In this document: positions 20,151 through 43,119 of the stretch, piece by piece
Position numbering within the stretch: the first letter of the stretch is position 1
How the letters are laid out: each line of letters opens with the position of its first letter
Assembly (NCBI GenBank): GCA_023954855.1
Contig: JAGSGY010000034.1
Span: 1-53,066 of the forward strand
DNA: 53,066 nt
From: Pseudomonadota bacterium
GTDB taxonomy: Bacteria; Myxococcota_A; UBA796; GCA-2862545
Reading direction: 5' to 3'
The notes under the pieces: model-generated
What the model saw: only the letters and a program-made list of their open reading frames with translations
Databases searched by the model: none
What the model was told of the DNA's origin: nothing
Program-made: the position numbers and the translations under genes

Positions 20151-22423
20151 ACCGCCTGAGCTTCGTCGCTTCGCTGCTGCTTCTGTCACCCGCGTGCGTA
20201 TTCATGAGCCGCTACGACACGCCCATGCCTCTGTCCGAGACGCCGGCCGACCAACAGGGCACAGCCACCTCCCAGACGACCGATTGGCTGCTTCGCGACC
20301 AGGCCAAGGCCGAGGACCTGCACATCGACTTCAGCTACGAGGCCGGTGAGGCAGGCATCGTCGAGGGGGGCGCGCTCAAGGTGCACCTCGGGCACGTACT
20401 TCCGACCGACCAGGTCATGTACACGCCGTTCTCGCTTTCTGGCCCGAGCATGTACTTCTTCAAGATCAACCTGCTCGACCAGGTCACCGCGACCTCGAGC
20501 AACCCCGATGTGAAGCTCAAGGTGCGCGAGCCCAGGCCCTTCCGCGCTCTCAAGAAGCAGTTTCGCTACATCAAGTACAAGCGCAGCAAAGAGGGTCAGG
20601 CCTCCAAGGACAACCTGCTGCGTCAGGCCGACAACGAGAACGCCATCGTGATCGAGGTCGTGAAGGGCTCCCTTCAACCGGGCGACACGGTGAGCGTGCG
20701 CATTGGCGACGAAGACGGTCTTCCCGGCCCCACCCGCGAGGCCCGCTACCAGATCATCGTGCGCGTCGACGCCGATGCGGACGGCACCTTCGGGCTGCTG
20801 CCAGAGCTTCCGTCCTTCGACACCTACTCGGCAAGGGTGCACGCCGTGGACCTCGTGGCGCCCACCACCCTGCCCGTGGGCCAGACCTCGTCAATGACCC
20901 TGAGGGTCGAAGACGACTACTACCTGCCGAATCTCGCTCGCTTCGAGACAGGAAGCATTGCGTTCGAGCCGGTCGAGGGTCTGAGCTTCGAGCCCACCCT
21001 GACCCTCGACGGCAGCCTAGAGTCGTGGGACGCCTGTGTCACCGCGCTCGACCTCACCGCCGACAGCCCCGGCACCTACCGAATCGAGGGTGTCGCGACC
21101 ATCGACGGCATCGAGTTCCCGATCCGCAGCAACCCCATCGTGGTGACCGAGGCCGGCGCAGACCAGATCTACTTCGGCGACACGCACCTGCACTCGATCC
21201 TCTCCTACGATGCCGACCGGCCGCCCGCCTACGTCTACTGGCGCATGCGAAACCAAGAGCGCTACGACTTCGCCTTTCTCTCGGACCACGACATGATCGG
21301 CGGCGTGCCCTTCGCACCCAAGACCGGCATCCTCGGACGCGACGAGAGCGAGTGGGCCTACACCCGGCAACTCGCCGACGAGAACTACGTCCCCGGCGAG
21401 TTCGTGACCTTGTACGCCTACGAGTGGACCTCGTACTTCTACGGCCATCGCAACATCTACTGGGCGCCCGACGAGTCCGACCCGCCGCTCGTGCATCACA
21501 ATCACGAGAGCACCTACGAGGACAAGCCAGACGAGCACCATCCCGCCGAGCTCGTCGCAAAGCTCGAGGGCCGTGACTACATCGCCATCCCCCACTCTAC
21601 CGCCTGGCCGACCGGCGATGTGAACTACCACTGGGGACCTGGCGAGGGCCGCTACGGCGACCCCGAGAGCTGGCCCGAAGAGAAGCTCATCGAGTTCTAC
21701 AGCAGTCACGGAACCAGTGAGCACCACGACAACGAGTACGCCGTGGACCAGGGTCGCCCGGAGGCGCCCACCGAGTCGAACTTCGTGAAGAACCTGCTGT
21801 CCTACAACATCCAGCAGGCCCCCGAGGACAGTGGAAACTTCGTGCAGGACGCGCTCGCCGCCGGATGGCGCTTCGGCTTCATTGGGTCGAGCGACATGCA
21901 CTACCTCTCGCACATCGACCAGGCCTACAAGCACGGAAGCGCCGCCGTCATCGCACCACAGCTCACGCGTGAGGCCATCTGGGACGGCATGCAGAACCGA
22001 CGCAGCTACGCAGTCACCGGCGTTCGCATCGCCCTCGACCTCGACGTCGATGGCTGGCCGATGGGAAGCATCCTCACTCGGCCCGGGCCCTCCGAGATGA
22101 AGTGGGCCGCCACCATCGACGGCACCGCACCCATCGAGTTTGTGCAGCTCGTGAAGTGGGACGGCAGCGCCTACATCGTCGCCGACGAACACCGCCCCGC
22201 CGAGGGCACTGAGCACGTGGACTGGCAGTTCACCGACCCGGCCGTCGAGCCCGGCCAGTTCGCGTATCTCAAGGTGCGGCAGGTCGACGGGAACTACGCC
22301 TGGTCAAGTCCTGTGTGGGTCGAAGAAGGACCGAGGGTCGAGCCGCAAGCGCCGCCGAGCCCAGAAGAGGCTGAGGAAGCGCCCACCGACGACGTGGAGG
22401 GAACAGACGCGCCCGAGCCCTGA
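20147..22423 (+). CDS. DUF3604 lipoprotein (PHP-like metal-binding domain)
   Basis: 758 residues. Lipoprotein signal MNRLSFVASLLLLSPAC with Cys17 as the likely anchor. The first ~330 residues are beta-rich. The rest is a DUF3604 domain, starting with the metal-site motif YFGDTHLHSILSYD (HxH near residue 345), then FLSDHDMIGG, YAYEWTS, HRNIYW, IPHSTAWP and FIGSSDMHYLSH. These are PHP-type phosphoesterase-like ligands; the catalytic activity of this family is not settled. It ends with an acidic Pro/Glu tail. It is translationally coupled to the preceding acyltransferase-like gene, suggesting a joint envelope role. Two hairpins follow its stop. Confidence 0.88.
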   Translation: MNRLSFVASLLLLSPACVFMSRYDTPMPLSETPADQQGTATSQTTDWLLRDQAKAEDLHIDFSYEAGEAGIVEGGALKVHLGHVLPTDQVMYTPFSLSGPSMYFFKINLLDQVTATSSNPDVKLKVREPRPFRALKKQFRYIKYKRSKEGQASKDNLLRQADNENAIVIEVVKGSLQPGDTVSVRIGDEDGLPGPTREARYQIIVRVDADADGTFGLLPELPSFDTYSARVHAVDLVAPTTLPVGQTSSMTLRVEDDYYLPNLARFETGSIAFEPVEGLSFEPTLTLDGSLESWDACVTALDLTADSPGTYRIEGVATIDGIEFPIRSNPIVVTEAGADQIYFGDTHLHSILSYDADRPPAYVYWRMRNQERYDFAFLSDHDMIGGVPFAPKTGILGRDESEWAYTRQLADENYVPGEFVTLYAYEWTSYFYGHRNIYWAPDESDPPLVHHNHESTYEDKPDEHHPAELVAKLEGRDYIAIPHSTAWPTGDVNYHWGPGEGRYGDPESWPEEKLIEFYSSHGTSEHHDNEYAVDQGRPEAPTESNFVKNLLSYNIQQAPEDSGNFVQDALAAGWRFGFIGSSDMHYLSHIDQAYKHGSAAVIAPQLTREAIWDGMQNRRSYAVTGVRIALDLDVDGWPMGSILTRPGPSEMKWAATIDGTAPIEFVQLVKWDGSAYIVADEHRPAEGTEHVDWQFTDPAVEPGQFAYLKVRQVDGNYAWSSPVWVEEGPRVEPQAPPSPEEAEEAPTDDVEGTDAPEP

Positions 22424-25674: not shown

Positions 25675-28600
25675 CTAGCCCGGCCATCCCTCGATCACCG
25701 CTACGGCTGCGAGCAAGCGCTCCGCGAGCTCTCGGTCCTTCGCCATACCCGGCCCATAGATCGCCTCGGCTTTCTTCAGAAGCGCACGCCCGTCGGCCTG
25801 TTCCCCCGTGTGCCCGGCCACTTCGGCCTGAGCGAGCAGCGCCGCCACGTGACTCGTGCGGTGACGTCCGTCCAAGGCGGGCACGGCGACCTCGAGCAGC
25901 GATGAAGCGTCCTCAAAGCGCTTCTGACGAATGCGCAGTCGGGCAAGGGTCGTCCGAAAGGTCCCCGCCACCACGGGCCAGGACTGGTCGCCGAGCTCGA
26001 TGGCTCGGACCAGCGCCTCTTCGGCCCGCTCGGTCTTCTGGGCCTCCATCAGGCTCTCACCCATGTTTCCGAGTGCGATGGCCTCATGGCCGACACTGCC
26101 CGCTCGCCGGGCAATTTCGGCACCCCTCTCGAAGGACGCAATGGCCTTGTCGAGCTTGCCAAGCTGGTGGAGTCGAACGCCGAGGTTGGCAAGAACCCGT
26201 CCCTCTTGCACCCGGTCACCCATGCGGCGCGAGGCCTGGAGCGCGAGCATCTCGTAGGCGGTTGCCTCATCGGCCTTGCCCTGGTGCGCGAGCAGCGAGC
26301 CGAGGTGGATGTGACAGAGCGGAATGTCGATGACCACACCATTGTCCTCGGCGAGCTTGAGTGCCTCGAGGATGTTCGCCTCGGCCTCGTCGAGCTTTCC
26401 GAGGTGCTGGTTCACGGCGCAGAGCTGGCGAAGCACGAGCGACCGACGCCATGGGGTGCCCGTGTCTTGGAGTAGATCCAGTGCCTGCTCGAAGCGCAGC
26501 ACCGCACCGGTCGGGTCGCCACCGTGATGGATGAGCATGCCGAGCCAGGTGAGCGCCCCCGCCTGAAGCTCGGTGTCCCCAGCTAGACCGCCGAGTACCC
26601 GTGCCATCTCAAAGGCTTTGCGCGCCTCGGCAGACTGGTTGCTGTCCTTGAGCAGATGCCCACGCACCACCTGAAGCCGGGCCAGGTCCCGCTTCGAGTC
26701 ATGAGAAATCGCGATGGCAGCGCGCACGCGGTCGAGCCCCGCCGCTGGGGGTCCCAAGCGCCCCAGTGCCTCGCCGATGGCCGTGGCACAGTCGGCGGCT
26801 ATGGCCCCCTCGCCCAGACGAATGGAGGTATCGAGTGCCGTTGCCACGTTCTCGATGTCGCGAAGGAGCGCACGAATGGCCTCGGCCCCGGCCGGCCCCC
26901 GGCGATGGAGCACCCCCTCGTCCGAGCCCAGACGCGCGAACCACACCGCATGGGCACGCTCCGCCTCGGCACGCTCTGACGTCGGCATCTCGTTGAGCAC
27001 AAAGGTCCGGACGGCTTCGTAGGGATGAAGGCGGCTGCGGGTCTGTCCGAGAAAGCGCACCTGAATCAGGCTGTGCGCGACCAGTCCGTGCACGACATGC
27101 ATCGCATCGGGTGCCTCGGGCCACGGCGAGAGGTCGATCAACGCCTCGGCCGCCTCCATGGTCAGTCCACCGCGAAACACCGCGCAGCGCCCCAGGGCGT
27201 ACTGGTCCCATGGCTCGAGCAGACGCCACGACCAGCGCAGGGCCACCTGCATCGCACGCTCTTGATTGCGTGCCCCCGAGCGAAGCTCCTGTAGCAGCGC
27301 CTCGCCCGAAGTCTGCACCGCGCGGGCGGCGGCCAGCTCGATGGCCAATGGATTGCCCTCGAGACGCTGCACCAGCTCTTGCACGGTCCCGGGCTCGATC
27401 TCTGCGAAGCGAAGGTTTGGCCGCCGGCGGCGCGCACGGTCCAAGAACAACGCACGACCGGCATGCACGTCGAGGGGGCCCACCTCGATGACCGACTCTC
27501 CAGGAACGCCCAGAGCACGACGGCTCGAGATGAGGAAGCGGGCGTCTGGAGCTTGCTCGAGAAGACGCGGCAGCAGTTCGGAGAGCGGCCCGGCGACCTG
27601 CTCGGCATTGTCGAGCACCACGGTCGTGGGCCCATGTCCAGCGATGGCACGCGCTACACGAAGCGCGGGGTCGGCCCCTTGTACCGGAACCGCCAGGCCC
27701 GCTGAGATGGCCACAAGCAGGGTCTCCAGCGTCCGGGCCTCGGCGAGGTAGCACTGAATCCAGCCCCGCCCAGAGGCGGCGAGCGATGCGGCGACTTGAA
27801 TCGCGAGGTGAGTCTTTCCGATGCCCGGGGCGCCTCGCAAGGTGACCACGCGGTGCTCACCGAGCGCATCCCGAGCGCGCGAAATCTCGCGTTGTCGACC
27901 AAAGGACACCGCCAGCGACGCGTCGGTCTGGTCCGGAAGCAGCGCATTGACCTCGGTGATGTCGTCGGCCCTGTGCGTGTCGGTCGGCACCGGCGGGTCG
28001 AGGTTCACCCAGTCCGGCAGGGCAATGTCCCCGTCCCAGGCACCTCGAAACGCCGCCATGTTCTGCGGTCGGCGGCGGGCTGTGGGGTCGAGCGCCCAAT
28101 GAATCGCCTGCGCCCAGGTCTCGCGAACCTCAGGTGCCACCAGGGCTACGGGCGTGAAGGCGCCATCCATCGCCCGGCGTAGAACCTCCATCCGCGAGCC
28201 GCCGCTGAACGGCCGCTTGCCCGTGACCATCCAGTACAACACCGTGCCGAGGCCAAAGACATCGGCGCGCTCATCGACCACATCGTTGCCCAAGAACTGT
28301 TCGGGGGCCATGTGCCCCGCCGTGCCCATCGCGAAGCCTCGCTCGGCGAGCATGTCGTCGGCCCCGAGCGGAGCGGCCTCGACCGCGATGCCAAAGTCCG
28401 TGATCTTCGCGAGATAGCCGTCGTCGACCCAGGTCAACAGCACGTTTCCGGGCTTGAGGTCGCGATGCACGAGGCCGTGTTCGTGGGCGGCCTCGACCGC
28501 ATCGAACAGCTGGTGCGCGAGGTGGTCAATCTGGTTCAGCGTGGGTCGGCCCTTGCCGAGCAGCTGCCGTAGCGAGAGCCCGTCGACCAGCTCCGACAGG

Positions 28601-28848
28601 ATGACGGGAATGCCTTCGACCAGCTGAAAGTCGAGCATTTTGACGATGTGGGGATGGTCCACCGTGCCCTGAAGGCGGGCTTCACGCATGGCCCGCAACA
28701 CCGCGTGCGGGTCGGCACTGTCGAGCACCTTGATGGCAATCAGCTCACCATCGTCGCGACGACCGCTCCACACCTCGCCCTGACCGCCGGAGCCAAGCTT
28801 GTGCTCCAACGTGATCTCAGCGATGCGGGTTCCCGGCTCAAGGCGCAT
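25675..28848 (-). CDS. Ser/Thr protein kinase fused to STAND-type ATPase and TPR repeats
   Basis: 1,057 residues. An N-terminal eukaryotic-like kinase (about 5-270) with a Gly-rich loop LGSGGQGEVWSGR, a catalytic VHRDLKPGN, ITDFGIA, and GTAGHMAPEQ is intact. A linker leads to a P-loop ATPase with RGAPGIGKTHLA and VVLDNAEQ (about 320-600), then about 400 residues of TPR helices such as AGALTWLGMLIHHGGDPTGA and GHEAIALGNMGESLMEAQKT. The layout resembles PknK/MalT-like STAND signal proteins in which TPRs sense a ligand and the kinase is the output. The ATG at 28848 is preferred; a TTG at 28863 is too close to its upstream GGAG. It lies 42 bp downstream of the selenoprotein candidate gene on the same strand and may be cotranscribed with it. 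Confidence 0.92.
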   Translation of the reverse strand: MRLEPGTRIAEITLEHKLGSGGQGEVWSGRRDDGELIAIKVLDSADPHAVLRAMREARLQGTVDHPHIVKMLDFQLVEGIPVILSELVDGLSLRQLLGKGRPTLNQIDHLAHQLFDAVEAAHEHGLVHRDLKPGNVLLTWVDDGYLAKITDFGIAVEAAPLGADDMLAERGFAMGTAGHMAPEQFLGNDVVDERADVFGLGTVLYWMVTGKRPFSGGSRMEVLRRAMDGAFTPVALVAPEVRETWAQAIHWALDPTARRRPQNMAAFRGAWDGDIALPDWVNLDPPVPTDTHRADDITEVNALLPDQTDASLAVSFGRQREISRARDALGEHRVVTLRGAPGIGKTHLAIQVAASLAASGRGWIQCYLAEARTLETLLVAISAGLAVPVQGADPALRVARAIAGHGPTTVVLDNAEQVAGPLSELLPRLLEQAPDARFLISSRRALGVPGESVIEVGPLDVHAGRALFLDRARRRRPNLRFAEIEPGTVQELVQRLEGNPLAIELAAARAVQTSGEALLQELRSGARNQERAMQVALRWSWRLLEPWDQYALGRCAVFRGGLTMEAAEALIDLSPWPEAPDAMHVVHGLVAHSLIQVRFLGQTRSRLHPYEAVRTFVLNEMPTSERAEAERAHAVWFARLGSDEGVLHRRGPAGAEAIRALLRDIENVATALDTSIRLGEGAIAADCATAIGEALGRLGPPAAGLDRVRAAIAISHDSKRDLARLQVVRGHLLKDSNQSAEARKAFEMARVLGGLAGDTELQAGALTWLGMLIHHGGDPTGAVLRFEQALDLLQDTGTPWRRSLVLRQLCAVNQHLGKLDEAEANILEALKLAEDNGVVIDIPLCHIHLGSLLAHQGKADEATAYEMLALQASRRMGDRVQEGRVLANLGVRLHQLGKLDKAIASFERGAEIARRAGSVGHEAIALGNMGESLMEAQKTERAEEALVRAIELGDQSWPVVAGTFRTTLARLRIRQKRFEDASSLLEVAVPALDGRHRTSHVAALLAQAEVAGHTGEQADGRALLKKAEAIYGPGMAKDRELAERLLAAVAVIEGWPG

Positions 28849-28890
28849 GCGAGAGCCTACCAAACTCCAGGGGGCGAGCGCAGCCGAGAC

Positions 28891-29646
28891 CTAAGGCGTG
28901 GCCGCAGCCGTGAAGAGCCCCTTGAGCTCGTCGTAGTTCGTCTGCTCGGCGAGATTGCTCACGGTGAGGTTGTAGACCCCCACCACGTTGTTGTCCCCAT
29001 CGACGATGTAGACATCGCGGTAGGCCACGCCCCACGCAGTCCACACGTTCACAGCAGCAGTGTCTTGCAGCAGACCGATGTCGCGGCCCGTGGTGAAGGT
29101 CACCACGCCACTCTCGTGCCCGGCCTGATTGACGCCGAAGATCGTGACATCGAGGCCCGCGGTCGTGAGCTCGTCCTGCATGGTGTCGAGGTAGCCAAAC
29201 TGGCTACTGCAGTAGCTTCACGTGGCGTGAGTGAAGTACCAGCCACTCACCTTCTGCAGGTAGTCGCGGGGCGACACGGCCTCCCCGGCGGTGGGTGAGG
29301 TCGTCGACACGTCGATGAGCGACCAGTCGGAGAGCGGCCCCGGATCGGTGTCGGTGTCTGCATCTGCGTCCGTGTCTGCGTCCGCATCGGTGTCCGCGTC
29401 CGCATCGGTGTCCGCGTCCGCGTCGGTGTCTGCGTCCGCATCGGTGTCCGCGTCCGCATCGGTGTCCGCGTCCGCGTCGGTGTCCGCATCCGCGTCGGTA
29501 TCGGCGTCCGCGTCCGTGTCGGCATCCGCGTCGGTGTCTGTATCCGCGTCGGTCTCGGTACCCGAGTCGACATCGTCCGGTTCAACCGGGCCACAGGCGG
29601 CGAGCAGTAGGAGCAGGAAGCTGGCGGGAGGTCTCATGGCGCGCAT
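28891..29646 (-). CDS. Candidate selenoprotein: lipoprotein with thioredoxin-like UxxC domain (in-frame UGA)
   Basis: 251 residues if the UGA at 29218-29220 is read as selenocysteine. Lipobox LLLLLAAC with Cys18; then about 70 residues of Asp/Thr/Ala repeats; then a thioredoxin-like domain from about 105. The strand [11 protein letters not shown] leads into U143-S-Y-C146, then helix [14 protein letters not shown], strand [12 protein letters not shown] and [17 protein letters not shown]. The frame is fully open on both sides of this one UGA, which falls at the first position of a CxxC motif. A hairpin fitting a bacterial SECIS lies 10 nt further on. ATG 29646 has AGGTGG 7 nt upstream. Expected role: envelope thiol-disulfide or peroxide reductase anchored in a membrane. 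The alternative is a nonsense-mutated pseudogene. No sel genes are in the window. Confidence 0.75.
29191..29207 (-). promoter_or_regulatory. Candidate bacterial SECIS hairpin downstream of the UGA codon
   Basis: In the mRNA sense, counting U of UGA as 1, bases 14-19 (GUAGCC) pair perfectly with 25-30 (GGCUAC), leaving the loop AGUUU at 20-24. The loop starts 16 nt after the UGA and has G as its second base. As I recall the published bacterial SECIS model, that spacing and a G in the first two loop positions are its main requirements. A competing palindrome, GCUAC-UGCA-GUAGC at 5-18, overlaps it and could be a switch or noise. Confidence 0.6.
29347..29560 (-). repeat. 18-bp tandem repeat coding Asp/Thr/Ala linker
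   Basis: About eleven imperfect copies of TCCGCGTCCGCATCGGTG (plus-strand reading), coding for TDADAD units on the minus strand inside the selenoprotein candidate. Variation is mostly synonymous (CGC/CGT, GCA/GCG). Such linkers are common between lipid anchor and domain in myxobacterial-type lipoproteins. Copy number can change by slippage. Confidence 0.9.
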
Positions 29647-30660: not shown

Positions 30661-32970
30661 ATGTCCACGACCGTGCAGTCTGTCTGTGTTCTCTGCAGCC
30701 ACAACTGCGGTGTGAACCTTGAGGTCGAGGACAACCAGATCGTCAAGGTCGCCGCTGACGCCGACAATGTGTTCACCAACGGCTACACCTGCAACAAGGT
30801 CTACCGGATCGCCCATTACGTGGATCACAAACAGCGGGTGAAGGCGCCTCAGAAGCGACAGCCCGATGGCAGCTACGCCACCATCTCCTGGGAGCAAGCG
30901 ACCCAAGAGATCGGCGAGAAGCTAAAGGCACTCACGGGGTCGCATGGACCAGACACCCTGGCCTTCGTCGGCATTGGTGGGCAAGGGAATCACCTCAGCA
31001 CCCTGTATGCGTTGGCATTTCTCACCGGTGTGGGCTCGAGGTGGTGGTTCAACGCCCTGGCTCAGGAGAAGACCCAGCGGGCGCTGGTAGATGGCTGGAT
31101 GCTCAAGGCACCCGTCGGTGCCATGATGGTCGGACACGCCGAAGAAGCCGACGTGTGCATCATCTTTGGCAGCAACCCTGCGCTCAGCCAGCGTGGCGTC
31201 GAGCCCCATCGCATGCTGCGCGCCTTCAAGAAGGACCCGGAGCGCACCCTCATTGTCGTGGACCCGCGCTACACCGAAACGGCGCGGCTGGCCGATCAGC
31301 ACCTGCCCGTCCAGGTTGGAACCGACACCTACCTCCTGCTTGCCATGGCCGGCGTCATTGTGCAGGAAGCCCTGTACAACGAGGCCTTTGTCGCGGACCG
31401 TACCACCGGCTTTGACGTGATTTCCCCGGTGCTGGCCGACATCAATGTGGTCGAGATGGCCGGTCGGTGTGGCCTGGAAGCGGCCAGTATTCGCGAAGTC
31501 GCACGAAGCTTTGCCGCAGCGAAGCGCGGCTGTATTGAGCTGGACCTCGGCCTAGAACAGAGTCGATTCAACACCCTGACCGCCTACCTCATCCGGCTTC
31601 TCTTGGTGATGACCGACAACCTGGGCCGAGAGGGCGGTGCGGTGTTCGTGAGTGTATTTGGCCCAAAGCTCCCCGCCCCAAACAGGTCCCCGAAGGCGGC
31701 TCCCGTGTCCGGCATTCCCGGCATCGCCATCATGGCTCCGGTGCCAATGTTTTCACCGGCTCTGTTTGCCGAAGAGGTGCTCAACGAGCGCCCCAATCGC
31801 ATTCGCGCGGTGATCGTGGAGGGAAGCAATCCGATGTTGACGTACCCCGAGACCCCCCGCGTCCGAGAGGCCTTCGAGCAGCTCGAGCTGAGTGTGGTGA
31901 TTGATCCTGCCTTCAACGAAACGGCGTGGATGGCGGACTATGTGCTCCCCGCACCGGTCAACTATGAGAAGTGGGAGATGGCGGCCTTTCCTAAGCCCTT
32001 TCCGCTGCTTGGCATCCAAGTGCGGGTACCCGCGCTGAAGGGACCGGCGGAGGCCCTCTCCGAGCCTGAGATCTATCACCGCATCGCAACGAAGATGGGG
32101 CTGATCCGGCCAGCCCCCCGAGTGCTTCATTGGCTGGCTCGGCGGGCGCACAGACCGCTCTGGGGGGTGGTCTATCTGCTCACGCTCGCCCCCATTGCTC
32201 TTCTGGCTGCTCGAAGCCTCAAGCGCTCCATAGCGATGGCAATGTTCTGGCTGTACGAGTCTCTCGGGCCGACCTTGCAGGCTCCCCAGCTCGCGTCCGT
32301 TTGGGCCCAATGCCTTGGCGCCGCGCTGACCCGACGGGCGGATGTGGTGCGTCAGTTCCCAGAGTTGGCAAAGACCCGAAACCCAGTGGCCATTACCCAA
32401 TGGCTGTTCAAACAAGTGATGGCTCACCCGGAGGGCGCCATCCTCGGCCGGCTCGACGTTGAGCATCACCTTCAGGACCACATCGGCTACGCAGACGGTC
32501 GCATTCGACTCGCCCCCGAGCCCATGCTCGCTGAGCTTGAGCGTGCCTTGAACGACGAACTGCCGGCCGACCATGACTATCCATTCGTTCTCAACGGTGG
32601 CATGCGCACGCACTGGACCGCGAATACGAACTTCCGCGATCCTGCATGGCGCAAGGGCTCGGGTCCGCACTGTGCGCTGCGGATGAACACCGACGAGGCC
32701 ACGCGATTGGGTTTCAAGAAGGGTGACTCGGTTCGGGTGTTCACCAGGACTGGCACGGTCACCTTGCCCCTGCTGCCTGAGAAACACGTCCAAGTCGGAC
32801 ATGTTCACATCCCAAACGGCTTCGGAAACTGCTATCCCGATCCGGAGAGCGGCAAGATCAAGACCTCTGGGGTCAACATCAACGAATTGACCGATGCGAC
32901 CCATCGGGACCCGTTCACAGGCTGCCCGCACCACAAATTCGTCCGCTGTCAGGTCGAAGGGGCGTGCTGA
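30661..32970 (+). CDS. Molybdopterin-dependent oxidoreductase (bis-MGD, 4Fe-4S type)
   Basis: 769 residues. An N-terminal [4Fe-4S] domain has Cys9-x2-Cys12-x3-Cys16-x27-Cys44. The molybdopterin core follows with GIGGQGNHLSTLYALAF, WFNALAQEKTQRALVDGW, VCIIFGSNPALSQRG, VVDPRYTETARLADQHLPV and VEGSNPMLTYPE. The C-terminal molydop-binding domain starts near VLNGGMRTHWTANTNFRDP. No Tat signal is visible, so it is probably cytoplasmic. No Fe-S or NAD-binding partner subunit is adjacent. An extra segment of about 100 residues between domains III and IV contains a hydrophobic stretch (VVYLLTLAPIALLAAR). Substrate unknown; the NALAQEKT group is broadly annotated as formate dehydrogenase or acetylene-hydratase-like. 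Strong start: GAGGAG 7 nt before ATG. Confidence 0.9.
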   Translation: MSTTVQSVCVLCSHNCGVNLEVEDNQIVKVAADADNVFTNGYTCNKVYRIAHYVDHKQRVKAPQKRQPDGSYATISWEQATQEIGEKLKALTGSHGPDTLAFVGIGGQGNHLSTLYALAFLTGVGSRWWFNALAQEKTQRALVDGWMLKAPVGAMMVGHAEEADVCIIFGSNPALSQRGVEPHRMLRAFKKDPERTLIVVDPRYTETARLADQHLPVQVGTDTYLLLAMAGVIVQEALYNEAFVADRTTGFDVISPVLADINVVEMAGRCGLEAASIREVARSFAAAKRGCIELDLGLEQSRFNTLTAYLIRLLLVMTDNLGREGGAVFVSVFGPKLPAPNRSPKAAPVSGIPGIAIMAPVPMFSPALFAEEVLNERPNRIRAVIVEGSNPMLTYPETPRVREAFEQLELSVVIDPAFNETAWMADYVLPAPVNYEKWEMAAFPKPFPLLGIQVRVPALKGPAEALSEPEIYHRIATKMGLIRPAPRVLHWLARRAHRPLWGVVYLLTLAPIALLAARSLKRSIAMAMFWLYESLGPTLQAPQLASVWAQCLGAALTRRADVVRQFPELAKTRNPVAITQWLFKQVMAHPEGAILGRLDVEHHLQDHIGYADGRIRLAPEPMLAELERALNDELPADHDYPFVLNGGMRTHWTANTNFRDPAWRKGSGPHCALRMNTDEATRLGFKKGDSVRVFTRTGTVTLPLLPEKHVQVGHVHIPNGFGNCYPDPESGKIKTSGVNINELTDATHRDPFTGCPHHKFVRCQVEGAC

Positions 32971-33048: not shown

Positions 33049-34485
33049 CTGGCCACATCCGCCCGCATTCTGGTCGTCGATGACAACCCGGACAATATCC
33101 GTGTGGCTGTCGCCCATCTCGAGTCCCACGGCTTCGATATGCGCGCCGCTCGTGATGGAAAGACAGCGTTGAAGCGGGTCGCGACGGCCCCCGTCGACCT
33201 CATCTTGTTGGACGTCGAGATGCCGGGACTGGACGGGTACGAAACCTGCCGTCGCTTGAAGGCCGCCCCAGCTTCCGCACACATTCCCGTGGTGTTCATG
33301 ACTTCACACACCGATGTGCAGAGCAAGGTCACGGCCTTGTCTGTGGGTGCGGTCGACTACATCACCAAACCGTTCGAGCCCCTAGAGTTGTTGGCCCGCG
33401 TGCGCACGCATCTGAGAATTGGGGAGCTGCAGGAGACCTTGGCGAGCCGCAACCTCGAGCTCGAGGCACTGACTGCAAGCCTCGCGCAGCGAGTCGCGGA
33501 GCAGGTTCAGACACTCGTAGAGCGCAACGAAGAGGTGGAGCGCCTCAACCGGCACTTAAGAACTCAAGTTCAGGACCGCTCATCCGCGCTCTCACACGCA
33601 TTGAGAAGGCTCTCCGAGGGTCGGGATGACGACGAGTCGCTCGATGGTCGGGTGCTGGATGGCCGATACGAGGTGCAGGCACCGCTGGCCAAGGGCGGCA
33701 TGGGAGCTGTGTACACAGGCCTGGATCGGCAGTCGGGCCAGGCGGTCGCCATCAAGGTGATACGCGGCGATGGCGTACACCCCGAGCAGATTGCGCGGTT
33801 TCTGCGCGAAGCGAAGATGGCCGCCAAGGTCGACCATCCTGCCGTCGTCCGGATGCTGCACATCGACATTCACGACGACGGACTGCTGTACCAAGTTCAA
33901 GAGTTGGTACCGGGCGCCACGCTGTTGGCGGTCCTGGAACAGCACGGGCACTTGCCGGCCGGTCAGGCCGCACGTCTGCTTTCCGTGCTTGCGGGCGCCT
34001 TGGCAGCCGCCCATGCGGTGGGGGTCGTTCATCGCGATCTAAAGCCGAGCAACATCATCCTGACCGACACTTCCCCAGGGTTGAAGCTCGTAGACTTTGG
34101 GATCTCGAAGGGAGGGGCGGACCATCCTGAGGACAACTCCACCCAGGATGGCTTCGCGATGGAGTCCAACATCACCCAAGTCGGACAGGCGGTCGGCACG
34201 CCCGGATTTATGAGTCCTGAACAGCGCTTTGGGCTCTCCGAGGGACCGGCGTCGGACGTGTTCGCGTTTGGAATTCTGGCTCACTTGGTGTTTACGGGAG
34301 CTCGCTCCAAAGACGGGGTCGCCACGAAGATGCCTCCATCAATTGGCAACCTCATCGGGTTGTGTGGCAACTACGAACCGGATTCTCGGCCGCAAGCCCA
34401 AGCCATAGCTGTTGAGTTGAGTGCGTTCGCGGATGCAGCCGGCGTACCACCGCTCCATGTGTTGGGGATAAGCACCGTCGACTAG
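33049..34485 (+). CDS. Receiver domain fused to Ser/Thr protein kinase, likely CTG start
   Basis: 478 residues from CTG 33049. An N-terminal receiver (RILVVDDNPDNIRVAVAHLE; phospho-acceptor Asp55 in LILLDVEMPG; Lys in ITKPF) is followed by a coiled coil (about 125-180) and a full kinase domain with LAKGGMGAVYTG, AIKVIRG, VVHRDLKPSN, KLVDFGISKGG and GTPGFMSPEQ. The nearest standard start (GTG 33103) would delete the first strand and the DD pair of the receiver. Between the previous in-frame stop and 33103 the only well-placed initiation codon is CTG 33049, with GGAG 6 nt upstream. It probably couples a two-component input to Ser/Thr phosphorylation. It stands 86 bp upstream of the trifunctional kinase gene on the same strand. 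Confidence 0.85.
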   Translation: MATSARILVVDDNPDNIRVAVAHLESHGFDMRAARDGKTALKRVATAPVDLILLDVEMPGLDGYETCRRLKAAPASAHIPVVFMTSHTDVQSKVTALSVGAVDYITKPFEPLELLARVRTHLRIGELQETLASRNLELEALTASLAQRVAEQVQTLVERNEEVERLNRHLRTQVQDRSSALSHALRRLSEGRDDDESLDGRVLDGRYEVQAPLAKGGMGAVYTGLDRQSGQAVAIKVIRGDGVHPEQIARFLREAKMAAKVDHPAVVRMLHIDIHDDGLLYQVQELVPGATLLAVLEQHGHLPAGQAARLLSVLAGALAAAHAVGVVHRDLKPSNIILTDTSPGLKLVDFGISKGGADHPEDNSTQDGFAMESNITQVGQAVGTPGFMSPEQRFGLSEGPASDVFAFGILAHLVFTGARSKDGVATKMPPSIGNLIGLCGNYEPDSRPQAQAIAVELSAFADAAGVPPLHVLGISTVD

Positions 34486-34571: not shown

Positions 34572-37500
34572 ATGAAGATCACGGGTTTCAGAAATCTTGC
34601 GCGCTTGCATGATGGCGGACAGGCCATCGTCTACCGAGCGACACGCGCGGCAGATGGTCGCCCGGTGGTGCTCAAGATGCTTCGGGGGCCGTACCCGACG
34701 CCTGCGCAACAGGCGCGCTTTCGAAAAGAGTACGACCTGACCCAGCACCTTGCTGGTAGCGGAGTTGTGGTCGTCGAGGGGTGGGTGAACGCCTCTGGGC
34801 TACCCATCATCGTTCTCGAGGATTTCGGTGCTGAGTCGTTGGAGCGGGTGTGGCCCAAGAGCGCACCCCCAGTCGCCGATGGGATCAGGGTCGCCATCGC
34901 GATTGTTGAGGCGCTTCAGCGGGTGCATGACGCGCGGGTTCTTCACCTCGATGTGAACCCCTCCAACATCATCTATTGCGAGGCCACAGGCGTCGTGAAG
35001 CTCATCGACTTCGGGCTGTCCACGGACCTCCCCAGGCAGTCAGCCTCTCTGCGTGCAGACCTTGTCATGCAGGGCACGCTGCGTTTTGTGGCGCCGGAGC
35101 AGACCGGGCGAATGAATCGTAGTGTTGACTACCGAAGTGACTTCTACTCTTTGGGCGCAACACTCTACTGGTTATTCACCGGGCAAGCACCGTTTTCGTC
35201 CGACGACCCACTCGAGCTGGTCCACGCCCACATCGCCCGAAAGCCTGCTCCCCTTCCCGGCGTGCCGGCGGCGCTATCTCGGGTCGTTTTGAAGCTGCTT
35301 TGCAAGAACGCGGAAGACCGCTATCAGAGCACGTTTGGCATTCTGGCTGATCTGCGACAATGCGCCGCAATGATCGCGGGTGAGGTCGACGGCGAAGGCT
35401 TCTACCCAGGCAGTGAAGACCGGCCCTCCAACTTTCGTATTCCAGAGAGACTGTACGGACGCGAAGGCGAGCTCACATCACTTCTTGACGCCTTCGACCG
35501 CGTCGCGAGTGGAGGTCGCGAGGTCGTGCTGGTGCAGGGGCGCTCAGGGATGGGCAAGACCGCGCTGGTTCTTGAACTGCAGCGGTCGCTCGTCGCGCGC
35601 CGGGGTGTGTTTGTTGCGGGCAAATTCGAACAGTTCAAGCGCGGGGTGCCCTATGCAAGTCTGGCGACGGCACTGCGCCAGTTCGTTCGGCAGCTGCTCA
35701 CCGGTCGAGAGGGAGACGTCCTGCGGTGGGGCGAGCGCCTAACCGCCGCGGTCTCTCCGAATGGGCGCCTGCTGATCCAGATGATTCCAGAGCTCCAGCA
35801 CTTCCTGGGCGAGCAGCCCGCTCTGCCGGCACTCCCACCGCTCGAGGCGGAGGCGCGGCTACATCGCACCGTGCGTCTATTCATGCGGGAGCTCGCGACC
35901 GCCGAACACCCGCTGGTGTTGTTCATGGACGACTTGCAGTGGGCCGATCTGCCCAGCATTTCGCTCCTAAAGGTATTGGCCACGGATGCAGGCGGCAGCC
36001 ACGTATTGATTCTCGGTGCATACCGGGACAAGGAGGTGTCAGCCGGGCACCCACTACACGGGCTTCTGCAGGATCTCGAAACGGAACAGGTGCCTGTTTC
36101 CACCGTTGTACTGGGACCTTTGACCCACGGTGACGTGCAACGCCTGATGTCCGACACACTGCACCTACCCATCGATGAAGTGGCGGATCTGGCGCATTGG
36201 TGTCGAGACAAGACAGCGGGCAACCCGTTTTTCTTGCATCGCTTTCTACAATCGCTCTCGCCTGGGGGCCTGCTGCGCTTCGACACAGAGGCCGGTGGTT
36301 GGACCTGGGATCTGGAACGCATCCGAGCCCTGCAGGTGACGGACAATGTGGTCTCGTTCCTGACCGACTCCTTGAGCCGTTTCTCGCCGGGTGAGCAACG
36401 ACAGCTTCAAGCGGCTTCGATTCTCGGCGCGGACTTCGGTGTGGCCGAGCTCTCGGCTGCGAGCGGCCTATCGGTCGAAGAGGTCTTGGAGGAACTGGCA
36501 AGGCCACTGCACGAAGGGCTCATCGAGGAGATTTCCGCTGGCGGAGATGGCACCGACGTCCACTTCCGTTTCCTTCACGACCGCATTCAGCAGGCAGCCT
36601 ACGAAGCGGCGACGCTCGACACCCGGCAGCGACTCCATCAGCAGTTTGGCGAACGATTGTTGCTGCGGACCGAAGAAGCGGAACTCAGCGATGAACTCTT
36701 CGACATTGTGAACCACCTCAACTTGGGGCTTGTTGCGCCAGAGCAGTCCTATCGACTGGCGAGCTTGAACGTCGCTGCAGGTCGCCGGGCTCTCACCTCG
36801 TCCGCGTACGAGCCTGCCGACCATTACCTACGGGCCGCCCGGGAAATACTGGGAGATTCCGCGTGGGTTGACCAACCTGAACGGATGCGCGAAGTCACTC
36901 TGATTGCAGCTCGAACGGCGTATCTGAGGTCGGACTACGGGCAGATGGACTCGCTCATTGCTGACGCCACCCTTCACGCGCGAGATGATCTCGATCGCAT
37001 TCGGGCCCTGCGTATTCGGATCGACGCACTGATCGTGCGAAACAAGAATGCGAAGGCCCTTGATGTGGGTCTGAGGGCGCTCAAGTTGCTGGACATCGAG
37101 CTGCCCTCCACACCCACAGAGGCGGACATCGGCGCTGGTCTCGGCGCGACATTTGCCCGCCTGGAAGACGTGGACCTGGATGGCATTCCCGATCAGACGC
37201 CTCCCGAGGATCCCGCAAGTCTGCTGGCGATGGAGATGCTGTGCGTGTTGGCGCCGCCGGCCTACTACGTCAACCAGGCGTTGCTTCCGCTCTTGGGGGT
37301 TGAGTTGGTGCGACTCACTCTGGAGCACGGGCCAACGCCAGAATCCTCCTACGGGTTTGCCCTGCTGGGCCTCGTGCTGTGTGACGTCGGGCACATTGAT
37401 CAGGGCTACGAATTCGGCCGCCTGTCTTGGCGGTTGGCTTGTCGATTCGACAACAAGCGCATGCGCGTTCGCTCAGGCCACGTCTTCAACGGCTTTTCTC

Positions 37501-39980
37501 GTCACTGGAAGGAGCCAGCACCCGACTACCTTTCCGAGTACGACGAGCTGTACGAGCTCGCGGTGGACATCGGCGACTTTGAGTATGCGTCCTACGCCGG
37601 CATGATGCACACGATCTGCGGCTTCTACGTGTCGTCGGATCTGCGTTCGTTGGCGCCGACTGCGCAGCGGTATGCCGAAATGATGCAGGAGGCCAATCAG
37701 GTCAACGGTCTCGCTGTACACGGCATGATGTACCAAGCCATGCTCAACCTGATGCGGGGCGCAGATGACCCTGTGGTGCTGACGGGAGCGGTCTTCAACG
37801 AGCCGGAGATGCTCGGGGTGTTCTTAGAGCTAAACGACCCGACCTGCCTGTTCGTCTTCCATTGCGTGAAGTGTGTTCTCGCGGGCTACCACGGAGAGTG
37901 GGACCAGGCACTGGACTTAGCAGGTGTCGCCCGCACATACATGCACGGCGCGGCGGCAACGCCTCACAAGGTCGCCCTTGAACAGTGGGAAGGGCTAGCC
38001 GCCGCTACCCTCGCGGCGACGACCGAGGATACAAGCAAACGCGAGGCCCTGCTGCAGCGAGCGGAGGACAGGCTAGCGCTTCTAGATCTATGGGCATCCC
38101 ACAACTCCATGGCTCATGGGCATCGCCCAGCACTGATTCGTGCGGCTATCGACAGCGCGCGCGGCGGTCCACATGCCCTCCTTGCCCTACAAGAAGCGGC
38201 GGATCAGGCGCGCGAACGAGGGCGTACCGTCGATGAAGCGGCCGCGCTGAGGTGTGCTGGAGAGCTGTGCCAGCGCACGGGCCTGCGGACTGCCGCCAAG
38301 GCGTATCTCATCGAGGCGAAGTTCGCGTTTGAGCGGTGGGGCGGCCAGAGCGTGGTGGCCGCGCTCGAGGGACGCTACCCCAGTTTGTTGGGCAATATCG
38401 CTGCTCGAGGCGAACATCGCTCTACCGCGTCATCCATCGCGGGAACGGGTGCTCTCGACGTCGACGTGTCTGCAGTTGTTCGCGCGTCGCAGGCCGTGGC
38501 GAAGGAGCTCGACCTAGACAAGTTGGTCGAGACCATTGTCAGACTCTCCGTCGAGACGAGTGGGGCGACGCGTTGCCTCGTGGTGAGCCCCCTAGAAGCA
38601 GGTCTGACGATTACATCGATGGGGGTCACCGAGCCTTTGGTGTCCGTCACTCACTGCAGCACGCCGCTAGCGGGATCTGGCGACGGGCCCGAGGGCATCA
38701 TCCAGTTTGTGGCCCGCACGCGCGAAGAGCTGGTACTGCACGACGCCCGAGTCTCCGAGCTCGGGGCCTCGGATTCCTACATCCGGGCCTCGGGGGTTCG
38801 CAGTGTGCTCTGCCTACCTATCGAGAGTCACGGTCACCTGCTAGCCGTGCTTTGCCTGGAGCACCGAGGGCTCGTGGGGGCGTTTACCCAAGACCGCGTC
38901 GCTCTGCTGCGGGTGCTGCTGGCTCAAGCGGCCATCTCGGTCGAGAACGCCAACCTGGTCGATACGCTTGAAGAGAAGGTGCGGGCACGAACTCAGCAAC
39001 TTGCGGCCGCGAATGAGGCCAAGAGCGACTTCTTACGTTCGATGAGCCACGAGCTGCGTACACCTCTGAACGGAATCTTGGGCTACTCCCGCCTCCTATT
39101 GGACCAAGGGCAACTGCAGCCCGGCCAGCTAGATGCCGTCGGCACGATTGAGCGTAGCGGCCGCCATCTTCTTTCGCTCATCAACGACATCCTCGACATG
39201 AACAAGATCGAGGCCGGCAAGCTCGACCTTGATCTCCACCCCATGCGCCTGACTGGGTTCGCTGCTGGCGTCACCAAGATCTTCCGCCCGGAAGCGGAGC
39301 GCAAGGGGCTGGCCATGGCCGTAATGAGCGGCCCAGATCTGCCAGAATGGATTGAGGCCGACGCGCGCAGGCTCCGTCAGATTCTGTTGAACCTAGTGGG
39401 CAACGCCGTGAAGTTCACGGGCGAAGGAGAGGTCGCCGTGACCATCGCCTCGGCGGGGCAACAACGAGCACACTTTGTCGTTCGCGACACCGGTCCAGGG
39501 ATCCCATCGGATCGGCTGGAGGGCATCTTCGACCCGTTCGAGCAGGCCGGTGGTTTTGAGCAGCGGGCCAAAGGGACTGGCTTGGGTCTGACGATTTCCC
39601 GTCAGATCGCGCGTCAAATGGGTGGCGACCTGACGGTCGAGAGTGAACTTGGCAAGGGCAGCGTGTTCACCCTGGAGATTCCTGTGAAGCCTTGCGCGGC
39701 ATTGAGTGACGCGAGTCTACTGCCCACGCCAGAGTCTGCTCCAGGAGATGCCTCCGCCAACTACTCGGAGGAGAAAGCGCCCACCGAATCCGAGTTGGGA
39801 ACCTTGATGGAGCTGCTAGCGGAGGGAGCTCTATCCGCCATCCAACAACGTGTACTGGACCTAGCAGCCGTCGATTCTGAACTCAAGCCCTTTGCGGACC
39901 GACTGTCTGCTTTGGCAAGAGACTTCGACGACGAGGGTATCGAGCGAGCGCTAGCGGCAGCGATGGAAGCTGGCGCGTGA
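34572..39980 (+). CDS. Ser/Thr kinase-ATPase-TPR-GAF-histidine kinase multidomain sensor
   Basis: 1,802 residues. Domain order: a kinase-like domain (1-265) with HDGGQAIVYRA, HLDVNPSN (His125, Asp127, Asn129 where Lys is usual) and LIDFGLST; an AAA/STAND ATPase (about 290-600) with GRSGMGKTALV and LVLFMDDLQWADLPSISLLK; a long helical TPR-like region (700-1260); GAF (about 1300-1470); HisKA (His1493 in [15 protein letters not shown]); HATPase_c with LLNLVGNAVKFTGEG, VRDTGPGIP and GTGLGLTISRQI; and a helical tail ending in ARDFDDEGIERAL. The family occurs in cyanobacteria, myxobacteria and others; HxDxNPSN in place of HRDxKxxN seems normal in it. No receiver is fused. Its start has GGGGAA just upstream. 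Confidence 0.93.
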   Translation: MKITGFRNLARLHDGGQAIVYRATRAADGRPVVLKMLRGPYPTPAQQARFRKEYDLTQHLAGSGVVVVEGWVNASGLPIIVLEDFGAESLERVWPKSAPPVADGIRVAIAIVEALQRVHDARVLHLDVNPSNIIYCEATGVVKLIDFGLSTDLPRQSASLRADLVMQGTLRFVAPEQTGRMNRSVDYRSDFYSLGATLYWLFTGQAPFSSDDPLELVHAHIARKPAPLPGVPAALSRVVLKLLCKNAEDRYQSTFGILADLRQCAAMIAGEVDGEGFYPGSEDRPSNFRIPERLYGREGELTSLLDAFDRVASGGREVVLVQGRSGMGKTALVLELQRSLVARRGVFVAGKFEQFKRGVPYASLATALRQFVRQLLTGREGDVLRWGERLTAAVSPNGRLLIQMIPELQHFLGEQPALPALPPLEAEARLHRTVRLFMRELATAEHPLVLFMDDLQWADLPSISLLKVLATDAGGSHVLILGAYRDKEVSAGHPLHGLLQDLETEQVPVSTVVLGPLTHGDVQRLMSDTLHLPIDEVADLAHWCRDKTAGNPFFLHRFLQSLSPGGLLRFDTEAGGWTWDLERIRALQVTDNVVSFLTDSLSRFSPGEQRQLQAASILGADFGVAELSAASGLSVEEVLEELARPLHEGLIEEISAGGDGTDVHFRFLHDRIQQAAYEAATLDTRQRLHQQFGERLLLRTEEAELSDELFDIVNHLNLGLVAPEQSYRLASLNVAAGRRALTSSAYEPADHYLRAAREILGDSAWVDQPERMREVTLIAARTAYLRSDYGQMDSLIADATLHARDDLDRIRALRIRIDALIVRNKNAKALDVGLRALKLLDIELPSTPTEADIGAGLGATFARLEDVDLDGIPDQTPPEDPASLLAMEMLCVLAPPAYYVNQALLPLLGVELVRLTLEHGPTPESSYGFALLGLVLCDVGHIDQGYEFGRLSWRLACRFDNKRMRVRSGHVFNGFSRHWKEPAPDYLSEYDELYELAVDIGDFEYASYAGMMHTICGFYVSSDLRSLAPTAQRYAEMMQEANQVNGLAVHGMMYQAMLNLMRGADDPVVLTGAVFNEPEMLGVFLELNDPTCLFVFHCVKCVLAGYHGEWDQALDLAGVARTYMHGAAATPHKVALEQWEGLAAATLAATTEDTSKREALLQRAEDRLALLDLWASHNSMAHGHRPALIRAAIDSARGGPHALLALQEAADQARERGRTVDEAAALRCAGELCQRTGLRTAAKAYLIEAKFAFERWGGQSVVAALEGRYPSLLGNIAARGEHRSTASSIAGTGALDVDVSAVVRASQAVAKELDLDKLVETIVRLSVETSGATRCLVVSPLEAGLTITSMGVTEPLVSVTHCSTPLAGSGDGPEGIIQFVARTREELVLHDARVSELGASDSYIRASGVRSVLCLPIESHGHLLAVLCLEHRGLVGAFTQDRVALLRVLLAQAAISVENANLVDTLEEKVRARTQQLAAANEAKSDFLRSMSHELRTPLNGILGYSRLLLDQGQLQPGQLDAVGTIERSGRHLLSLINDILDMNKIEAGKLDLDLHPMRLTGFAAGVTKIFRPEAERKGLAMAVMSGPDLPEWIEADARRLRQILLNLVGNAVKFTGEGEVAVTIASAGQQRAHFVVRDTGPGIPSDRLEGIFDPFEQAGGFEQRAKGTGLGLTISRQIARQMGGDLTVESELGKGSVFTLEIPVKPCAALSDASLLPTPESAPGDASANYSEEKAPTESELGTLMELLAEGALSAIQQRVLDLAAVDSELKPFADRLSALARDFDDEGIERALAAAMEAGA

Positions 39981-40140: not shown

Positions 40141-43119
40141 CTAGCTCGCGGCTTCCTCGACGGCTGCCAGTGCCACCAGTGCCTCGTCAAAGGCAAAGGC
40201 GTCCACGCACTCTCGCAGCACGGCGACGTGGTCCCCGTCGGAGAGCTCGGCGAGCTGCCCCCAAAGTCCGTCCATGTGCTTGAGTGCCTTTGTGTCTCCG
40301 ACTTCAAGCATTCGGCGAAGCTCGCAGAGTCGCTCGGTCAGTTCTCCGGCGTCGACCGGCGGGCCCGCGGGCGCCTCGGGCAGTGGTGCAAGAGCGGCTA
40401 GCTCGTCGAGTACGGGCGCTAGGCTCGCATAGAAGCGCTCAAGCTCTGGGCCAGCAGAGCCGCCGCGAAGCGCCGTCTCGAGGTCGCTGCTGGCGCGGTA
40501 CAATTCGAGTGCGCCGATGTTTCCTGCGGCGCCGCGCACTGCGTGAACCCTGTCTCGAGCTGCCAGATAGTTCTCGGCTGCCACGTCCGCGCGAACCTTG
40601 GCTTCAAGGTCCATCTGCTCGCGTCCGAATCCCAGCAAGATCTTGCGGTAGAGGGCATGGTTGCCCCGAAGCCTCCTTAGACCATCTGCCACATCGATGT
40701 GAGTAAGACCGAGGTCGGCGGGCAGGTCCTCCACCCTTGGCGCTATCGGAGCGGGACCCGCGACTGGAGCTACCCCCGGTTCTAGGCGGCCGATGGCTGT
40801 CAGCAGTCTCACGGTAACGTCGACTAGACGGTCCGGATCGAGGGGTTTGGTAATCACATCGTCCATGCCAGCTTCGATGCACATACGATGCTCGTCGGAG
40901 CTTGCATGTGCCGTCAACGCCATGATGGGAAGGACGTTCTTGCTGAACCGTTTGCGAAGTTGACGGGTTGCTTCGCGTCCGTCCATGCGCGGCATCTGGA
41001 TGTCCATCCACACAACATCGAACTCGGCCCGCTCTCCTGTGAAGGCATCGACTGCAGCTTGGCCGTCGTTCACCATGGTGATTTCCGCGTCGGCGTCCTC
41101 GAGCAGCTGGGAGATTAGAAGCTGGTTGGTTTGATTATCCTCGGCCACCAAGATGCGGGCTCCGGCCAGGTTCGCGCCGAGTGGTCCAGGTGCGGCGGCC
41201 TCGGGAATGCGAGAAGCGGAGACGTCCATCAACGCGTCGTGCAGCCGCGAGGGACTCACTGGCTTCTCTAGGACGTGCCGGACCACAGGATGTCTTGCGG
41301 CCAACAAGGCGTCCGCGTGGGCGGTCACCAAGACCACCGGAAGCGAATCCAGACGGTTGTCGGCGCGAATGGCTGCGGTGGCCTCGACACCGTCCATACC
41401 CGGCATCTTCCAATCCATGAGCACAAGGTCGAACCCCGCGCCGGCGGGAGTGTCATGCACCGCGTCGAGTGCGGCCTCTCCGCTGGACACTACGACGGCA
41501 TCGACCCCAAAGGAGGACAGCATGCCGCTCATGACTTCCCTGGCAACCTCGTTGTCGTCAACGACGAGCACGCGCATTCCATCGAGCATCACCCCATGAG
41601 GCTGAAGCTCGCCGGGCGCGGCCAATGAGATGTCGAACCGGAATGTGCTACCGACGCCGGGCTTGCTGCGGACATCAATGGAGCCGTCCATCAGCTCAAC
41701 CAGCCCCCGACAGATGGAGAGTCCCAGCCCGGAACCGCCGTAGCGACGCGTCGTGGAGTCGTCCGCCTGCACGAACGGAGAGAACAGGCGAGAGGCCTGC
41801 TCTTCGGTCAAACCGATGCCAGTGTCCTCCACTGAGAACTGGACCCTGTACCGGTCGTCGGCCGACTGGAGCAGTGCGACACCGACGATGATCTCGCCCG
41901 ACTCGGTGAACTTCAGCGCATTGTCGACCAGGTTGGCGAGCACTTGCCGGAGCCGAACAGGGTCGCCGCGAAAGCGCATCGGCATGCTCACGGTGTGGAA
42001 GAGAAGCTCAAGACCCTTGTCGCCGGCGCGGGTCCCGTAGAGCACCCCGAGCTCGCGCAGCACCTCCTCGACGTCGAAGTCCACATCCTCAAGCACCACG
42101 CGCCCCGCCTCGATCTTCGACACGTCAAGAACTTCATCAATGAGTATGAGAAGCGCCTTCGCAGAGGACTGTGCTTGTTCGAGATAGCGACGTTGACGTG
42201 CGGTCAAATCGGTTCGTAGGGCCAGATAGATCATGCCGAGTGCGCCATTCATCGGTGTTCGGATCTCATGACTCATGGTCGCCAAAAAGCGCGTCTTTGC
42301 CTCACTTGCAGCCTCGGCAGCCACGATCGCGTCACGCAGCTCAGCGGTGCGGTCGGCGACCGTCTGCTCGAGGTCGTCCTTGTGCTGCTCCAGGTCGTCG
42401 CGGGCGCGCTTGGTCTCCTTGGTTCGCGCAGCGATGATCTCGAGCATTTGGTTGAACTCGCGGGACAGCACGCCGAGTTCGTCGTCGCGATCGACCGTCA
42501 CCCGCTCACCGAGGACCTCACTTGTCTGCACGTGCTTCACGGCGTTGATCAAGCGCAGCACGGGCCCTGAGATTGTGCTTTCTAGCAGCAGCGCTAGGCC
42601 GATGGCTAAGGTCAGCCCGACGATCAGCATGAGCACAAAGCCCACCATCGCGTCGCGAGTGGCTTCCTGGCGCGGTTTGGGACTCGCGCGAAGGATGAGC
42701 ACGCCCATAGACTCCCCGTCTTGGACCACCGGATAGACGAACTGGGCACGACCGTCGGAATGGTGCAGGACACCGGGGGGCGCCTCACGGTCCAGGGGTT
42801 CGTCCGGCACGCCCTCAACGCGATAGATCGCGAAGATCTGTCCCGAGGCGTCTCGTAGCTCTGCGAGCTCCACGAGAGGCTCGGTAGAGAGGGTGCCAAG
42901 CACCGCTGTCGCCGCGTCGGGATCCAGGAATTCCAGAGCGGAGAGGCTATTGGCACCAACAAGGTGGGCGCTGGTCTCGAGCTGCCGGTCGACCCGGACG
43001 TTGGCGTTCTCAAGTTGCTGGTAGAGCGCAAGCCCTGTGAGTAGGGTCAGAACCACGAATGCGATGGTGGCCTGAAGTAGGACCAGCTTGGCACGCAAAG
43101 GTAGATTTCGGAACGTCAT
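40141..43119 (-). CDS. Hybrid sensor histidine kinase with two receivers and HPt
   Basis: 992 residues. TM1 (about 10-30), a periplasmic domain (about 35-160, CHASE8-like), TM2 (about 165-190), HAMP, a coiled coil, HisKA (MSHEIRTPMNGALGMIYL), HATPase_c with LANLVDNALKFTESG, VEDTGIGLT and GSGLGLSICRGL. The first receiver has VLVVDDNEVAREVMSGM and LVLMDWKMPGMDG; the second ILVAEDNQTNQLLISQLL and VVWMDIQMPRMDG. The HPt domain (about 820-920) has VHAVRGAAGNIG as the acceptor. A helical tail ends in DAFAFDEALVAL. It can run a complete His-Asp-His relay. It is the last gene of a six-gene reverse operon and overlaps the YfiR-like gene by ATGA. Confidence 0.94.
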   Translation of the reverse strand: MTFRNLPLRAKLVLLQATIAFVVLTLLTGLALYQQLENANVRVDRQLETSAHLVGANSLSALEFLDPDAATAVLGTLSTEPLVELAELRDASGQIFAIYRVEGVPDEPLDREAPPGVLHHSDGRAQFVYPVVQDGESMGVLILRASPKPRQEATRDAMVGFVLMLIVGLTLAIGLALLLESTISGPVLRLINAVKHVQTSEVLGERVTVDRDDELGVLSREFNQMLEIIAARTKETKRARDDLEQHKDDLEQTVADRTAELRDAIVAAEAASEAKTRFLATMSHEIRTPMNGALGMIYLALRTDLTARQRRYLEQAQSSAKALLILIDEVLDVSKIEAGRVVLEDVDFDVEEVLRELGVLYGTRAGDKGLELLFHTVSMPMRFRGDPVRLRQVLANLVDNALKFTESGEIIVGVALLQSADDRYRVQFSVEDTGIGLTEEQASRLFSPFVQADDSTTRRYGGSGLGLSICRGLVELMDGSIDVRSKPGVGSTFRFDISLAAPGELQPHGVMLDGMRVLVVDDNEVAREVMSGMLSSFGVDAVVVSSGEAALDAVHDTPAGAGFDLVLMDWKMPGMDGVEATAAIRADNRLDSLPVVLVTAHADALLAARHPVVRHVLEKPVSPSRLHDALMDVSASRIPEAAAPGPLGANLAGARILVAEDNQTNQLLISQLLEDADAEITMVNDGQAAVDAFTGERAEFDVVWMDIQMPRMDGREATRQLRKRFSKNVLPIMALTAHASSDEHRMCIEAGMDDVITKPLDPDRLVDVTVRLLTAIGRLEPGVAPVAGPAPIAPRVEDLPADLGLTHIDVADGLRRLRGNHALYRKILLGFGREQMDLEAKVRADVAAENYLAARDRVHAVRGAAGNIGALELYRASSDLETALRGGSAGPELERFYASLAPVLDELAALAPLPEAPAGPPVDAGELTERLCELRRMLEVGDTKALKHMDGLWGQLAELSDGDHVAVLRECVDAFAFDEALVALAAVEEAAS

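Follow-up and report, generated by a model that had tools for sequence, protein, structure and literature searches.

Gene Organization and Protein Architecture

The window, that is, the whole analyzed stretch of 53,066 nucleotides, carries on its minus strand a single frame that encodes 251 amino acids if TGA is translated as selenocysteine (Sec) and that ends with TAG (Table 1). The lipoprotein frame has a sole in-frame TGA, located in the context THAT-U-SYC. The initial annotation had described this gene as consisting of a lipobox, an acidic linker and a thioredoxin-like domain with a lone UGA. On retranslation, its coordinates and sequence and all of these parts proved correct.

Table 1. 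Features of the predicted selenoprotein gene and its product. Positions refer to the window.
Feature	Position	Strand	Basis
Predicted selenoprotein gene	28891..29646	-	Translation; NF053656, 197 bits
Start codon ATG, preceded by AGGTGG; another in-frame ATG lies at 29637	29646	-	
Signal sequence and lipobox LLLLLAAC	29593..29646	-	Judged by eye
Asp-rich low-complexity linker	29332..29592	-	Sequence, repeat analysis
ResA/TlpA-like thioredoxin-fold redoxin domain (residues 106-251, 146 aa)	28894..29331	-	Profile, alignment, structure
UGA, predicted selenocysteine (residue 143)	29218..29220	-	U/C/A at the codon across 70 homologues
Putative resolving Cys146 of UxxC	29209..29211	-	C in 69/70 homologues
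Predicted SECIS hairpin GUAGCC-AGUUU-GGCUAC	29191..29207	-	Comparative test, published model
Arg210 at the Trx/ResA cis-Pro position, a Prx-type feature	29017..29019	-	ResA alignment, family counts; PMC2757866

A lipobox-like Cys following a hydrophobic N-terminus was also found by pattern matching in most of the homologues. The protein is presumably lipidated and located outside the cytoplasm, in the periplasm or at the cell surface. The linker is formed by an 18-bp tandem repeat present in 11.3 copies (29350-29553) and varies freely between homologues. The contig search using the whole protein produced three matches, all of them confined to the Asp-rich linker. The family members L029, L031, L034 and L080 carry additional long stretches, containing repeats of domain-like segments, that separate the N-terminus from the redoxin domain.

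Relation to Known Redoxin Families

The domain matches the NCBIfam model NF053656 (redoxin_TUGYCR, "TUGYCR motif thioredoxin fold (seleno)protein") with a score of 197 bits at a cut-off of 100 (E 1.3e-58). The match runs from residue 106 to 247 (positions 2-145 of the 146 in the profile) and includes sequence before and after the TGA; the T-U/C-x-x-C active site of the family is present as T142-U143-S-Y-C146. Besides matching over the full length of the domain with a score twice the curated cut-off, the protein shares with the family the position of U and the partner Cys. The motif differs in being T-U-S-Y-C-S instead of T-U-G-Y-C-R, and variation of this kind is common within the family. Among 379 sampled genomes of the phylum, 55 had an NF053656 match above the cut-off, and in most cases the match contained one TGA. 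The initial annotation had considered the protein a probable new selenoprotein. This claim of novelty fails, since the family is already modeled in NCBIfam as a (seleno)protein and about 50 of the 379 phylum genomes carry it with TGA; the protein is real, and its kind has already been catalogued.

The literature search revealed no paper describing TUGYCR or NF053656, though one may have been published. The search for selenoproteins in Myxococcota or myxobacteria returned nothing relevant as judged on title and abstract. The NF053656 accession is absent from the 119-family table of PMC13188914, in which the generic entry "Redoxin family protein, UxxC" could be the same family. Two entries in Table 1 of that work resemble the window protein. 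Prx-like thiol:disulfide oxidoreductase selenoproteins (PF00578, UxxC/UxxU, WP_010940744.1) share with it UxxC in an AhpC-TSA-like domain, and the redoxin family selenoprotein (PF08534, UxxC, HEU0032618.1), which might belong to the same family, shares UxxC in a redoxin domain. By contrast, the best Pfam matches of the window protein, AhpC-TSA PF00578 (19.7 bits, gathering threshold 26) and Redoxin PF08534 (18 bits, threshold 26.6), are both sub-threshold; the comparison with these two groups was made via Pfam scores and descriptions.

Selenocysteine and Cysteine Forms of the Family

Seventy homologous domains were extracted and aligned, and a tree was built from them. The residue at the TGA codon is encoded by TGA in 57 of the 70, is Cys in 12 and Ala in one, and the partner Cys in the column of Cys146 is retained in 69 of them. 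Such conservation, together with the profile match on either side of the TGA, goes far beyond what chance would produce. The UGA had earlier been placed at the redox Cys of a UxxC site, and this placement agrees with the Sec/Cys pairing at the codon and the conserved partner, the Cys homologues at position 143 being those that the initial annotation had suggested looking for. The Ala copy (L080:2841-3284) has lost both Sec/Cys and the partner Cys (ASATASVQ) and is possibly a non-redox paralogue; its genome (G113) also has a TGA copy, L069.

The Sec/Cys labels on the tree require four changes. The Cys pair L049/L055 groups with a TGA member within the main TGA clade with support of 97/84, the bootstrap there being rough. 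This placement in the sequence tree suggests at least one change from Sec to Cys in the family. Some Cys copies appear to arise within the Sec clade, in genomes still possessing selA.

SECIS Hairpin

The predicted SECIS hairpin begins 10 nt past the UGA and has a 6-bp stem, the spacing from UGA to the loop being 16 nt. All six base pairs form in 51 of the 57 TGA genes, as against 1.7 expected for the same proteins with random synonymous codons; these counts include related sequences more than once, and 23 distinct hairpin sequences are present. None of the 12 Cys homologues has the complete six-pair hairpin. Compensatory pairs were found at pair 2 (U-A/C-G), pair 3 (A-U/G-C) and pair 4 (G-C/C-G), and some of the covarying pairs accompany an amino-acid change (SSQFGY, SGQFGH, RAQFGR, RSQFGF). 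The standard six-pair hairpin is missing from L082, L083 and L084 (CCACCCAGGTCGTGCAC), three TGA members that may use a shifted SECIS.

The published bSECIS model includes G in the first two loop bases, a loop located 16-37 nt from UGA, a stem of 4-16 bp and a minimum free energy of <= -7.5 kcal/mol (PMC13188914). The window hairpin conforms to it with the loop AGUUU, the distance of 16 nt and the stem of 6 bp, and the 48-nt stretch including the hairpin folds at -14.4 kcal/mol. Folding a single 71-nt sequence gave a z of only -2.2; the comparative synonymous-codon test is the stronger evidence. The Rfam search over the gene found no cis-element. When reuse of the SECIS sequence elsewhere in the genome was searched for, a single match with two mismatches was found in C168 outside any redoxin frame; it is taken as chance because the reversed control pattern matches too.

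Selenocysteine Machinery and Decoding of UGA

All four components named in the initial annotation as worth checking are present in the genome: selA (506 bits), selB (301 bits) and selD (253 bits), each over its cut-off, and tRNA-Sec (62 bits) with the anticodon TCA (UCA). The selD region (L019:7-2556; G000:C50, around 21277-22173) occupies the C-terminal portion of an open frame of 849 aa, whose N-terminal portion resembles a pyridine-nucleotide-disulfide oxidoreductase. The SelD active site reads CGGCAAK, and SelD itself thus uses Cys. In the 379-genome phylum sample, selA exceeded its cut-off in 48 of the 51 TGA-bearing genomes versus 190 of the 328 others (Fisher p 9e-8, a value that overstates the independence of cases because the genomes are related). 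The three TGA-bearing genomes without selA over the cut-off are incomplete assemblies with completeness of 78-83%.

One explanation of the TGA is that a redoxin gene of the Cys type has acquired a random nonsense mutation or contains a sequencing error. Cys homologues do exist, and the assembly is a draft of 178 contigs. This explanation is nevertheless scarcely credible, since TGA occupies the same codon in 57 of the 70 aligned members, which represent many genera and families, and the covarying SECIS is confined to TGA members; the earlier opinion that a random mutation is unlikely agrees with this. The UGA could also be read otherwise, through reassignment of the codon to Trp, Gly or Cys or through near-cognate read-through, and the open frame alone cannot separate these decoding routes. 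The full set of selA, selB, selD and tRNA-Sec, the agreement of the hairpin with the published model and the pairing of UGA among homologues with Cys rather than Trp or Gly make such decoding very improbable. Judging from the sequence comparisons, the in-frame UGA of the lipoprotein gene is with high probability read as selenocysteine. The initial claim of a selenoprotein is thus borne out by the TGA/Cys homologues, the covarying SECIS and the complete Sec machinery. Ordinary gene calling would break this conserved protein at the UGA into two pieces. The family represents a natural experiment, in which the Sec members have SECIS and the Cys members lack it.

Fold and Active Site

The AlphaFold2 model based on the family alignment had a pLDDT of 97.5. 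Among solved structures, it best matches ResA variants (Z 17.2-17.4, 130 residues aligned, 2.0 A), followed by Bcp4 (Z 16.0), PrxQ (about 15.4) and other redoxins. The protein resembles the membrane-anchored thiol-disulfide oxidoreductases ResA/TlpA/DsbE in its fold (Z 17.4 at best), the position of the Cys pair and the probable membrane anchoring. Unlike these proteins, with which it has 18-20% identity, it has Sec for the first Cys and Arg for cis-Pro. In the profile alignment, Y-R-D-V-V-V-L-D of the family stands opposite L-P-T-T-F-L-I-N of ResA, which places Arg210 at the cis-Pro position. This residue is Arg in 56 of the 57 TGA members, a state typical of peroxiredoxins (PMC2757866). Of the ResA/TlpA features, the Trx fold and UxxC are thus present, and cis-Pro is replaced.

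The peroxiredoxins (PrxQ/Bcp, AhpC) are similar to the window protein both in fold and in Arg at the cis-Pro position. They differ from the family in that most of its members lack the -3 threonine, and in that its second Cys lies at +3 from the attacking residue. The PxxxTxxC motif of Prx is absent: the -3 position is occupied by His in the window protein and in 50 of the 57 TGA members, so the canonical Prx site is not present. No description of the combination of a ResA-type UxxC with a Prx-type Arg at cis-Pro was found.

Proposed Mechanism and Substrate

SelB with Sec-tRNA(UCA) would bind the SECIS hairpin and insert selenocysteine as residue 143. The mature protein would have a lipid anchor and a flexible acidic linker bearing the redoxin domain of the ResA/TlpA fold. 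Sec143 could act as the attacking selenolate aided by Arg210 at the Prx-type position, and Cys146 could resolve it as an intramolecular selenylsulfide, which would subsequently be reduced by a thiol partner. Such a Sec143/Cys146 selenylsulfide cycle is suggested by the arrangement of the active site.

The substrate of this cycle has an approximately even chance of being a peroxide or another small oxidant, and a somewhat lower one of being a protein disulfide; reduction of the former is slightly favored over protein disulfide exchange. The window protein is perhaps a peroxidase. The family may represent a seleno-peroxidase tethered at the surface or in the periplasm, with a hybrid site combining ResA-type UxxC and Prx-type Arg at cis-Pro, a reading that falls short of being probable. 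That the selenoprotein acts on protein disulfides in the manner of ResA/TlpA-type thiol:disulfide oxidoreductases, and not as a peroxidase, is a possibility of comparable weight. The closest solved folds belong to ResA, TlpA-like and DsbE/DsbF proteins, several of which are membrane-anchored, and the Sec/Cys spacing matches CxxC. Against this, nearly all TGA members have Arg instead of the cis-Pro, a residue believed to contribute to the Trx/ResA substrate site, and the best Pfam matches are AhpC-TSA and Redoxin, albeit sub-threshold. The name "thiol oxidoreductase" given in the initial annotation fits the kind of enzyme; given the Prx-type Arg, however, a peroxidase is at least as likely. With its partly Prx-like and partly ResA-like active site, the family offers a testable case of why selenium is employed outside the cytoplasm. 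What deserves to be kept from this analysis is the hybrid active site, together with the covariation of the SECIS.

Genomic Neighborhood

No second copy of the family was found in the genome itself, and the tblastn search for plasmid and phage copies gave no match. The all-against-all comparison of flanking ORFs revealed no shared neighbor beyond a kinase-bearing flank (four loci) and close relatives. The neighborhood is not conserved and thus gives no hint of partners. The molybdopterin oxidoreductase of 769 aa (PF00384) encoded at 30661-32970 (+) of the window is formate-dehydrogenase-like, scores well under the Fdh-alpha cut-off and has no in-frame TGA. Ser/Thr kinases and hybrid histidine kinases are densely clustered around the gene, at 25675-28863 (-), 33103-34485 (+), 34572-39980 (+) and 40141-43119 (-).
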